Source: Thalassocella blandensis (GTDB lineage: Bacteria > Pseudomonadota > Gammaproteobacteria > Pseudomonadales > Cellvibrionaceae). Taken from it: DNA of 43,972 bases. The translations under genes and the position numbers were made by a program. The notes under the pieces were generated by a model, which worked only from the letters and a program-made list of their open reading frames with translations, ran no database searches and was not told the DNA's origin. This document shows, piece by piece, positions 26,969 through 32,316 of this stretch; positions within the stretch are counted from its first letter, which is position 1, and every line of letters begins with the position of its first letter. The DNA lies in contig CAMCXE010000005.1 of the NCBI GenBank assembly GCA_945882995.1, positions 1 to 43,972 on the forward strand. The letters run 5' to 3'.

Positions 26969-26994
26969 CCACTATTGGCGTGTTGGAGCCTGCT

Positions 26995-27816
26995 ATGAAT
27001 CCGGAAAACCCATTTGGTGTGGCCTTGCAGTTGGGCCGCCAACAAGCCTATGTGGACAGCTATGATGCCAGCTTGCTGCAACCTATCGCTCGCGACCTGT
27101 GTCGCCAAAGCTTGGCGCAGCAGGATTTTGTGGGTTGCGATATTTGGACGGCCTATGAGCTCTCGTGGTTAGATGCCACAGGGAAGCCTCAGGTGGCGGT
27201 GGCCGAATTTGTGGTGCCAGCCAGCAGCTCACACCTCATCGAATCAAAATCCTTTAAGTATTATCTCAACTCCCTCAATCAAACCCGTTTTGCTGACCGC
27301 GCTGCACTGCAAGCACTTTTGCTGCACGACTTGTCGGTCGCTGCAGGAGCGCCAGTGACACTCAGTTTTCTACCTAACGATTTTTATCGCCAAGCGGACG
27401 ACATAGGCGCGCAGCTAGTGGATGACTTGCCACTGGATACCAACATTTATGCGCCGGATGCGAGTTTGTTGTTGACGGGGGACGCTGCCGTAATGGACGA
27501 GCAGGTGTTGTGTAGCCATCTGCTGAAAAGTAACTGTCCGGTCACTGGGCAGCCGGATTGGGCCAGTGTTTGGGTAGGCTACACGGGGGCCCAAATTTTA
27601 CCGGCAAGCCTCTTGGCCTATATCGTTTCCTTTCGTCAGCACCAAGATTTCCATGAGAATTGCGTGGAGCAAATGTACGTCGATATTTGGCAGCGCTGTG
27701 CACCCCAAACCCTTTGGGTTTACGCACGTTACACGCGGCGCGGTGGTTTGGATATCAACCCATTTCGCAGTAGTTATGAGCGCGCAGCGCCGGTGGTGCG
27801 AGGGTTCCGTCAGTAG
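26995..27816 (+). CDS. queF: NADPH-dependent 7-cyano-7-deazaguanine reductase
   Basis: This 273-aa enzyme reduces preQ0 to preQ1 on the way to queuosine in tRNA. It is the long, bimodular type: N-terminal half with MNPENPFG and FVVPASSSHLIESKSFKYYL (the substrate motif E(S/L)K(S/A)hK(L/Y)(Y/F/W)), C-terminal half with the catalytic C181 and D188 in SNCPVTGQPDW and the binding residues in FHENCVEQM. The ATG at 26995 was chosen for the GGAG site eight bases before it. Another queuosine-type gene (31117-31956) lies about 3.3 kb away. Confidence 0.96.
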   Translation: MNPENPFGVALQLGRQQAYVDSYDASLLQPIARDLCRQSLAQQDFVGCDIWTAYELSWLDATGKPQVAVAEFVVPASSSHLIESKSFKYYLNSLNQTRFADRAALQALLLHDLSVAAGAPVTLSFLPNDFYRQADDIGAQLVDDLPLDTNIYAPDASLLLTGDAAVMDEQVLCSHLLKSNCPVTGQPDWASVWVGYTGAQILPASLLAYIVSFRQHQDFHENCVEQMYVDIWQRCAPQTLWVYARYTRRGGLDINPFRSSYERAAPVVRGFRQ

Positions 27817-31116: not shown

Positions 31117-31956
31117 TCAGCTTTTACTGATGGCACCTTTGGCTATGCCTTCAAACGCTTTTACCTCGAAGGTGTCCTGGGGGTGCAGCAGGCTTAGGCG
31201 TTGTAGTAGGTGGGCGCTGATATTTTCCACAGTGCTGTCAGCATTCATGAGATAACACACGCTGGCGGGCAGCTCCAGTCGGTAGTCACCCTGCTGTGCC
31301 GTGTAAGCAAACTTATATTGAGTCTCGTTCACGGAATTGAGCAGGTCGGCCTTTGTGCCTATATAAATGTCGCGCCAGAGCGTCGCTATTTCGTTCATGG
31401 TGTCTAGGCATAAGCTGCCATTGCGCCAGACGAGAATTTTTGAACGATGGCCGTGGGCAATGCGCTGGCAGTTGCCGAGATGTTTTTTAAGGCCGTGACT
31501 GTAATGATAAAAAGGTGTTGCAATGGTTTCGGGGGCAAAGCTAAGGTGCAGTTGGTCCACGCCGGCGTCAAATAGCTTTCTAATCTGCGGCTCACACCAT
31601 TGCGCCACTGACTCAGGAGTGATGGTCTTTTGACTGATAAGCGCCACTGACTCCTTGGGTGACTGGGTGGCTAAATAGTGTTGGTTGCCGAATTGCCAGT
31701 GCGCGTCGATTTGGAGCGAGTCGGTGTTAAGCTGCAGCGCGGAGGAGTGAGTGGGAATTAGCAATTTGTGATCAAGCTCCACATCTAGCCAGTGCCGCAG
31801 GTGTTTCTTCACAAAGCCAAAATCGCAAATCATGCCCTGCTCATCTAAGGCTCCGTCGAGCGCGATACTGGCTAGCCAAGTCTCACCGACTAAGCCCCGC
31901 TCAGGGCAGAGGTAACTGAAGTCTACGTTCGTTAAGTTGTCGACAAATAGACGCAT
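31117..31956 (-). CDS. Two-domain 6-carboxytetrahydropterin synthase-like protein (QueD family)
   Basis: This 279-aa protein is a tandem fusion of two QueD/PTPS folds, about twice the length of E. coli QueD (121 aa), which makes 6-carboxytetrahydropterin for queuosine. Domain 1 (about 1-145) keeps C17, the catalytic LDH triad region at D62-H63 (VELDHKLLIP) and the substrate-binding E143 (FAPET), but the zinc-binding HGH is replaced by VGE. Domain 2 (about 146-279) keeps the zinc ligands H154, H168 and H170 and the catalytic C163 (GNCQRIAHGH), but its LDH is replaced by KADLL. The two together hold one complete site. Queuosine use is suggested by queF nearby. Confidence 0.8.
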   Translation of the reverse strand: MRLFVDNLTNVDFSYLCPERGLVGETWLASIALDGALDEQGMICDFGFVKKHLRHWLDVELDHKLLIPTHSSALQLNTDSLQIDAHWQFGNQHYLATQSPKESVALISQKTITPESVAQWCEPQIRKLFDAGVDQLHLSFAPETIATPFYHYSHGLKKHLGNCQRIAHGHRSKILVWRNGSLCLDTMNEIATLWRDIYIGTKADLLNSVNETQYKFAYTAQQGDYRLELPASVCYLMNADSTVENISAHLLQRLSLLHPQDTFEVKAFEGIAKGAISKS

Positions 31957-31998
31957 AATTGGAATCCAATGTATTCGATGTATTAGAGGGCAGAGTAT

Positions 31999-32316
31999 AT
32001 GGTGAAACTGAGTTATTATGTGCCGCCGAGTTACCTAGAAGCCGTCAAGTCTGCGATTTTTGCGGCGGGAGGCGGACAGCAGGGCAACTACGATTTGTCC
32101 TGTTGGCAAACGCTAGGGGTGGGGCAGTTTCGCCCCAAAAATGGCAGCCAACCCTTTCTAGGGCAAAAGGACAAGCTGGAGAAGGTAGAAGAATATAAAG
32201 TGGAAATTATTTGTGAAGAATCTAAATTACAGGCCGTGATAGCAGCACTGCGCGAGGCTCACCCTTACGAGGAGCCCGCCTTCGATTGCTGCCAGCTGCT
32301 GGATCTCGATACCTAA
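31999..32316 (+). CDS. YqfO/NIF3-associated small protein
   Basis: This 105-aa protein resembles the CutA-like domain found inserted in some NIF3/YqfO proteins and also alone: MVKLSYYVPPSYLEAVKSAI, then FAAGGGQQGNYDLSCWQTLG, VGQFRPKNGSQPFLGQ, and the C-terminal AHPYEEPAFDC. The cellular role is not known to me. It is divergent from the QueD-like gene and ends 4 bp within the convergent DUF3135-like gene. Confidence 0.85.
   Translation: MVKLSYYVPPSYLEAVKSAIFAAGGGQQGNYDLSCWQTLGVGQFRPKNGSQPFLGQKDKLEKVEEYKVEIICEESKLQAVIAALREAHPYEEPAFDCCQLLDLDT

Follow-up and report, generated by a model that had tools for sequence, protein, structure and literature searches.

Canonical QueD (PTPS-I, TIGR03367; E. 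coli QueD) is a T-fold enzyme whose site is made of three zinc-binding His residues, a catalytic Cys, an Asp-His pair, a PTSE-type Thr/Glu and an end Glu. In PTPS, the Cys and the zinc sit on one subunit and the Asp-His of the triad comes from the next; Burgisser et al. (1995) reportedly describe, going by their title, PTPS with "an intersubunit catalytic triad". In PTPS-III, the folate enzyme, a Glu replaces the catalytic Cys. In canonical PTPS, two trimers stack head to head into a hexamer, and the zinc sites lie between adjacent monomers (PMC7546909). In canonical QueD, all of the site residues are present on each of six identical chains.

Other enzymes carry two T-folds in one chain. Urate oxidase has tandem T-folds with its sites at the domain interfaces. 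Bimodular QueF (TIGR03138, the V. cholerae / E. coli type), which catalyzes a later step of the same pathway as QueD, is made of two fused, weakly similar T-folds and is not known to have a zinc site. Its catalytic Cys and Glu are both in the C-terminal module, the Cys has been lost from the N-terminal module, and the site is interdomain, according to PMC5372742. QueD paralogues have been described as well: Haas et al. (2009) reported Zur clusters with a QueD paralogue, QueD2, including one on the Klebsiella plasmid pLVPK, and the accessible part of their paper describes zinc ligands that are kept in these paralogues and goes without mention of two domains or a divided site (PMC2770081). The literature searched, whose coverage leaves out most subscription journals, contained no bimodular or tandem QueD.

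The window studied here, meaning the whole stretch of 43,972 nucleotides from Thalassocella blandensis, is one contig (C5) of a 3.96-Mb assembly that is 97.07% complete. It holds a gene whose product is, we think quite probably, a bimodular QueD (6-carboxytetrahydropterin synthase) with a predicted composite site contributed by both domains. The gene occupies 31117..31956 on the minus strand and encodes 279 amino acids plus a stop; the original prediction had placed the open reading frame correctly and left its strand unstated. Judged by this protein, Saccharophagus, Marinagarivorans, Cellvibrio and Microbulbifer are among the nearest named relatives, which points to a probable source in the Cellvibrionaceae. 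Between the gene and a divergent ORF starting at 31999 there is a short inverted repeat, ATTGGAATCCAAT, immediately upstream of the gene at 31958-31970.

In Pfam the protein scored 54.1 bits against PTPS (PF01242) in two stretches, over the gathering cut-off of 22.4. It missed the cut-off of the QueD equivalog TIGR03367 in NCBIfam (43.5 vs 89.25 bits), which counts against reading it as QueD, and QueF_N and QueF domains were absent from its Pfam and NCBIfam matches. The AlphaFold2 model, built with 35 sequences, had a mean pLDDT of 93.6 and a pTM of 0.90. The gene is predicted to encode a tandem of two PTPS/QueD T-fold domains. Domain 1 (residues 1-145; 31522..31956, minus strand) has lost the zinc ligands and kept the Asp-His dyad, and domain 2 (residues 146-279; 31120..31521, minus strand) has kept the zinc ligands, the Cys and the Glu and lost the dyad. 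The model of domain 1 (1-145) matched Plasmodium PTPS, 3lze (Z 11.4, rmsd 2.8 over 140 residues), and that of domain 2 (147-279) matched 3jyg (Z 8.5, rmsd 3.3 over 118 residues) and the Acinetobacter QueD2 structure 7v0f (Z 7.3, rmsd 3.4 over 115 residues). For a protein of two equal domains, a pTM of 0.90 suggests that their relative placing in the model is predicted with confidence. Urate oxidase was tried as a template for the two-domain arrangement, without success: the alignment had an rmsd of 15.9 over 172 residues, so it shows no rigid agreement of the arrangement.

When profiles were compared with hhalign, domain 1 matched canonical QueD with a probability of 94.2% (E 1.1e-07). Domain 2 matched it more weakly, with a probability of 54.7% (E 1.2e-04), and this too counts against the QueD reading. 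The match between the two domains was itself weak (67% over 51 columns), and it does not distinguish the "subfunctionalisation after duplication" of the original prediction from a fusion of two PTPS genes that were already different.

The conservation set contained 162 homologues, which formed 81 clusters at 70% identity and had pairwise identities of 20-100% (median 45%). It was made of 146 proteins of at least 240 aa from fetched loci (hit E <= 1e-15, with identical sequences removed), 12 further ones found at E <= 1e-3, and 4 from a set of 11 loci that had not already been included. The 12 include the proteins of phages VH7D and phi-ST2, which are identical to each other. Partial copies in two genomes (G033 and G049) were excluded from the residue counts and scored as present in the genome co-occurrence counts. 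The canonical set began as 16 loci from other genomes, which a script screened for HGH and [LIVM]DH; 14 passed, including all 13 that were over the QueD cut-off, and L182 and L183 were dropped as divergent to leave 12 canonical QueDs. Across these 12, H13, C24, H28, H30, D67, H68, T81, E83 and E107 (L173 numbering) are invariant and belong to one domain, although the HGH and the dyad are there partly by selection because the script required both motifs.

The tandem protein has the same inventory of site residues, but it is split over two fused domains. D12, D45, D62, H63, H154, C163, H168, H170, T242, E244, E269 and K273 are invariant in 162/162 homologues. Domain 1 supplies the LDH-type catalytic dyad, D62-H63 (31768..31773; this and all other residues of the protein are on the minus strand), which aligns exactly onto the canonical catalytic dyad in hhalign. 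Domain 2 supplies the first zinc ligand, H154 (31495..31497), the catalytic Cys, C163 (31468..31470), and, in H168-G169-H170 (31447..31455), the second and third zinc ligands. The motif CQx[IM][AVG]HGH is found in all 162 proteins; its C-x4-HGH spacing, equally constant, differs from the C-x3-HGH (CxxxHGH) of canonical QueD, which is another point against the QueD reading. Domain 2 also has the substrate-binding PTSE counterpart, T242-V-E244 (31225..31233), which aligns to the canonical T81/E83 with E244 exactly on the Glu of PTSE in the profile alignment. The probable end Glu, which anchors the pterin, is E269 (31150..31152): extending the domain 2 alignment, which ends at 266, puts it two residues past the canonical E107. 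In the alignment to canonical QueD there is no conserved Asp-His at the LDH place of domain 2, and an Asp-His after L/I/V/M/A occurs somewhere in domain 2 of 7 of the 162 homologues, in varying contexts.

Domain 1 is the complement of this. Its three zinc His places are taken by D12 (31921..31923; placed by motif spacing, as the hhalign alignment of domain 1 begins at residue 20), V23 (V/L23) and E25 (31882..31884), the last of which is E in 143 and D in 5 of 162 homologues. Position 25 is never His, and an HGH is found elsewhere in domain 1 in a single homologue (1/162). The PTSE counterpart of domain 1 has decayed (position 115 is S in 60 proteins, E in 50, D in 14, and others in the rest), and around residues 10-30 there is no Cys in 116/162 and no Cys that is conserved. 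Two of the lost zinc ligands have become near-invariant acidic residues, D12 and E25, as if they had taken on a new structural role.

Most of this pattern had been anticipated. The original prediction held that domain 1 lacks the zinc HGH and keeps LDH while domain 2 keeps the zinc His residues and the Cys and lacks LDH, and both statements agree with the invariant residues above. It also proposed checking that the pattern is conserved, and the complementary residues are indeed invariant in the 162 homologues with one exception, E143 (31528..31530), which it took for an end Glu kept by domain 1. Of the 162 homologues, 135 have E at that position, 21 have D and the remaining 6 have another residue; counted by clusters, it is E in 75/81. 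The profile alignment of domain 1 ends at residue 138, and an ungapped extension puts the canonical E107 on F140. E143 was rejected as an invariant end Glu, since it is common rather than invariant and stands off the canonical place if the alignment is extended; the invariant Glu residues, E244 and E269, are both in domain 2. With E in 75/81 clusters, E143 may still have a role.

In every one of the 162 homologues, both residue sets are divided between the modules and each module is without the other half. Complementary sets that are this invariant argue for a real partition that is kept by strong selection. The idea of two decaying, functionless domains was rejected, because both sets are invariant over the 81 clusters.

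Since the triad of canonical PTPS is itself intersubunit, the partition suits one composite site. We propose that the tandem protein would convert dihydroneopterin triphosphate to 6-carboxytetrahydropterin for queuosine as follows. Domain 2 would bind the substrate, with T242, E244 and E269 holding the pterin and the zinc taking the side chain. D62-H63 would reach over the domain interface from domain 1, either of the same chain or of an adjacent one, and complete the Cys/Asp/His triad, so that this dyad and C163 of domain 2 would form the acid-base set. Each pair of T-folds would have one live site and one dead, mirror-image site, and the protein would hold half the zinc of canonical QueD. 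The meeting of the halves, the chemistry and the number of zincs are what we infer. One consideration counts against this explanation: a PTPS ring is made of three T-folds, which leaves no simple way for N and C domains to take turns around it, so the assembly would have to use N3/C3 rings or another ring size. The central idea of the original prediction, a shared site built from two specialised halves, is well supported by the invariant pattern, the QueD context described below and the precedent of QueF; the Glu had been assigned to the wrong domain.

Could domain 2 be the enzyme by itself, using its own general base (H159, for example), with domain 1 as a scaffold in which D62-H63 is kept for folding? 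Nearly the whole site is in domain 2, H159 is conserved in 158/162 homologues, and the C-x4-HGH spacing is unlike that of QueD, all of which favors this idea. However, D62-H63 falls on the canonical dyad and is unvarying in 162 sequences down to 20% identity, and H159 is Ser in the remaining four, which are phage proteins by their sequences. We consider this explanation unlikely, and the composite site remains our preferred reading.

Genomic context indicates that the tandem protein is very probably this organism's QueD. The source genome has FolE, QueE, QueC, QueF and Tgt, all over their cut-offs, with queE and queC on contig C7. A canonical queD elsewhere in the genome would have told against the original prediction by its own terms, and none was found at E <= 0.001 in the 97.07% complete assembly, where there is likewise no second PF01242 match at that threshold. 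An assembly gap that hides a canonical queD was rejected as the sole explanation, given this completeness and an over-cut-off QueD in 0/37 genomes of the window's family. Six of those 37 genomes do have an extra, separate PTPS-like gene below the cut-off, and in G312 a separate QueD-like gene scores 88.4 bits, slightly short of that cut-off; both observations count against a clean replacement.

Among 58 related genomes, 48 matched the tandem protein, and 47 were counted as having it after G039, which has only a separate single-domain gene, was left uncounted. Thus the tandem was present in 47 genomes (two of them, G033 and G049, with partial copies), an over-cut-off QueD in 8, both in 2 and neither in 5. 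The two genomes with both, G047 and G052, again count against a clean replacement. QueC was over its cut-off in 45 of the 47 tandem genomes, and the remaining two are 68% and 75% complete. Five relatives (G022, G040, G044, G050 and G057) have QueC without the tandem or an over-cut-off QueD; G044 and G050 carry PTPS-like genes of 168-173 aa, and G022, G040 and G057 have no match to the QueD model at E <= 0.001.

In a class-wide set of 274 genomes, 55 matched at E 0.001, and only the 16 with full-length matches (E <= 5.5e-80) were scored as having the tandem. An over-cut-off QueD was found in 126 genomes and both in 0 (Fisher p 3.8e-05, uncorrected for kinship). This is a strict test for QueD, passed by 4 of 9 control genomes that have a QueD hit. 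QueC (E <= 1e-30) was found in 15 of the 16 tandem genomes, the other being 75% complete, in 119 of the 126 QueD genomes and in 82 of the 132 with neither; the class total for QueC was 216 at this threshold and 213 at the cut-off. Across these sets, the tandem and the over-cut-off QueD largely exclude each other.

The tandem gene is also partnered with queC and queE, as canonical QueD is. In another family of the same order (f24), it lies directly after queE in 5/5 loci read, out of 8 such genomes, and queC precedes queE in 4 of the 5 as called; at the fifth locus, L212, a simple gene caller called queE and did not call queC. One of the five genomes, G328, was picked for a nearby queC, and the other four were taken without knowledge of their context. 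At L203 both partners are over their cut-offs (QueC 206.1 bits, QueE 341.5 bits). Six other loci of 4.4-7.1 kb each (L206-L211) had no queC or queE match, which counts against the partnership.

Distant copies of the tandem are found in seven phage records, at 23.7-26.0% identity. Four of these phages, all Straboviridae, were looked at by their neighborhoods. In Vibrio phage VH7D the gene (L192, 4318-5250) is annotated "hypothetical" and is near folE, queC (169.6 bits, over the cut-off of 150.3) and a gene that resembles queF (226.4 bits, short of the 293.45 cut-off). In phi-ST2 it (L193, 5989-6921) is annotated as a nitrile reductase, only folE is annotated beside it, and the other names there are doubtful. 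Phage 1.081.O has it as "hypothetical" (L194, 5989-6903), with folE, a transglycosylase-like gene, queF and a queuosine gene (queC) nearby according to the annotation. The tandem is the only PTPS-family match in these three phages. In Aeromonas phage Ahp1 it is again "hypothetical" (L195, 5992-6870), there is no annotated que gene in the 12.9 kb read, and a second weak PTPS match lies elsewhere in the phage. Phage nt-1 is, we presume, related to VH7D, phi-ST2 and 1.081.O. One paper (PMC6884629) lists FolE, QueD, QueE, QueC and DpdA2 for this phage.

These contexts bear on whether the protein might belong to another pterin branch (tetrahydrobiopterin PTPS or folate PTPS-III) and have a split site there, with the QueD function lost or supplied otherwise. 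PTPS-family names do span several activities, according to PMC5041015, and the tandem protein falls below the QueD cut-off. Yet it follows queE directly in all five loci of one family, it is near folE, queF and queC in two phages, and it is the sole PTPS gene found in a genome that keeps queE, queC, queF and tgt. For the PTPS-III branch, C163 in all 162 homologues stands against the Glu that PTPS-III has at that place. We judge a role outside queuosine to be quite improbable. That domain 1 gained a second, different site of its own is hardly credible: the invariant D12, the mostly acidic E25 and the common E143 would suit such a site, but the PTSE counterpart of domain 1 has decayed, no Cys is kept around residues 10-30, and the acidic residues may do no more than pair with a basic residue on the other side of the interface.

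The bimodular QueD also travels on plasmids. By tblastn it was found on 601 plasmid records, 562 of them from Klebsiella; among the matches listed, 9 of 20 plasmid records had the match split between two annotated genes, a sign that some of the plasmid copies may be broken. On the Klebsiella IncFIB/IncHI1B plasmid NZ_CP142996.1 the gene (L196, 6001-6867) is named "isocitrate dehydrogenase", which is likely a misannotation. Its neighbors there are a "transcriptional repressor", which we read from the annotation as being of the Fur/Zur type, a GTP-binding protein, dksA, folE2, carbonate dehydratase, threonyl-tRNA ligase, dihydroorotase and hemB, and together they look like a zinc-starvation cluster. 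On a Pantoea plasmid the tandem gene follows zigA. No zinc-type neighbors of the tandem were seen on an Amphritea plasmid, and stretches from Aeromonas, Vibrio and Photobacterium that contain it come without annotation. The Amphritea and Pantoea records name the product "6-carboxytetrahydropterin synthase", so the rough identity of the protein is already known. As read from the sequences, the divided, complementary site and its fixation appear to be unreported in the literature searched.

The comparison with Zur-regulated QueD2 is a partial one. Like QueD2 (PMC2770081), the tandem is found in such clusters, on one Klebsiella and one Pantoea plasmid. However, with about 200 aa the chain of the Acinetobacter QueD2 (7v0f) is shorter than the 279 aa of the tandem, and unlike QueD2 the gene in the window is outside any zinc cluster. 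No match to a crude Zur-type pattern, GTTATANNATAAC (2 mismatches), was found within 9.9 kb of the gene, and the window as a whole has 3 matches to this crude pattern vs 6.84 expected by chance.

The closer parallel lies in the same window. A bimodular QueF gene, for a later step of the same pathway, is at 26980..27816 on the plus strand; it has QueF_N and QueF domains in Pfam and scores 350.1 bits vs a cut-off of 293.45 in NCBIfam. It is 3.3 kb from the tandem QueD, so the window holds two enzymes of the same pathway that are both built from tandem T-folds. The two proteins have in common a pair of fused, weakly similar T-folds. They differ in family and in chemistry, and the other module carries the QueF motif in bimodular QueF and the Asp-His in tandem QueD. 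By analogy, a second enzyme of the pathway would have come to the arrangement that bimodular QueF is already known to have. More tentatively, and with rather more doubt than belief, we suggest that this is a second, independently evolved bimodular queuosine enzyme, in which each pair of T-folds has a live site and a dead one, a single zinc is enough for two domains, and the quaternary structure differs from that of canonical PTPS. If that is true, a lower need for zinc could explain why it was recruited to the zinc-starvation clusters on Klebsiella and Pantoea plasmids.

The bimodular QueD fills the place of a "missing queD" in those Gammaproteobacteria where the best candidate for QueD scores below the cut-off and has a loose or wrong name. 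It would link this enzyme to zinc-starvation clusters and also to the 7-deazaguanine gene clusters of vibriophages. It would also offer a natural test case for the way in which an enzyme that is symmetric, with its sites at subunit interfaces, becomes asymmetric after fusion, and two enzymes of one pathway, QueD and QueF, appear to share that same route.
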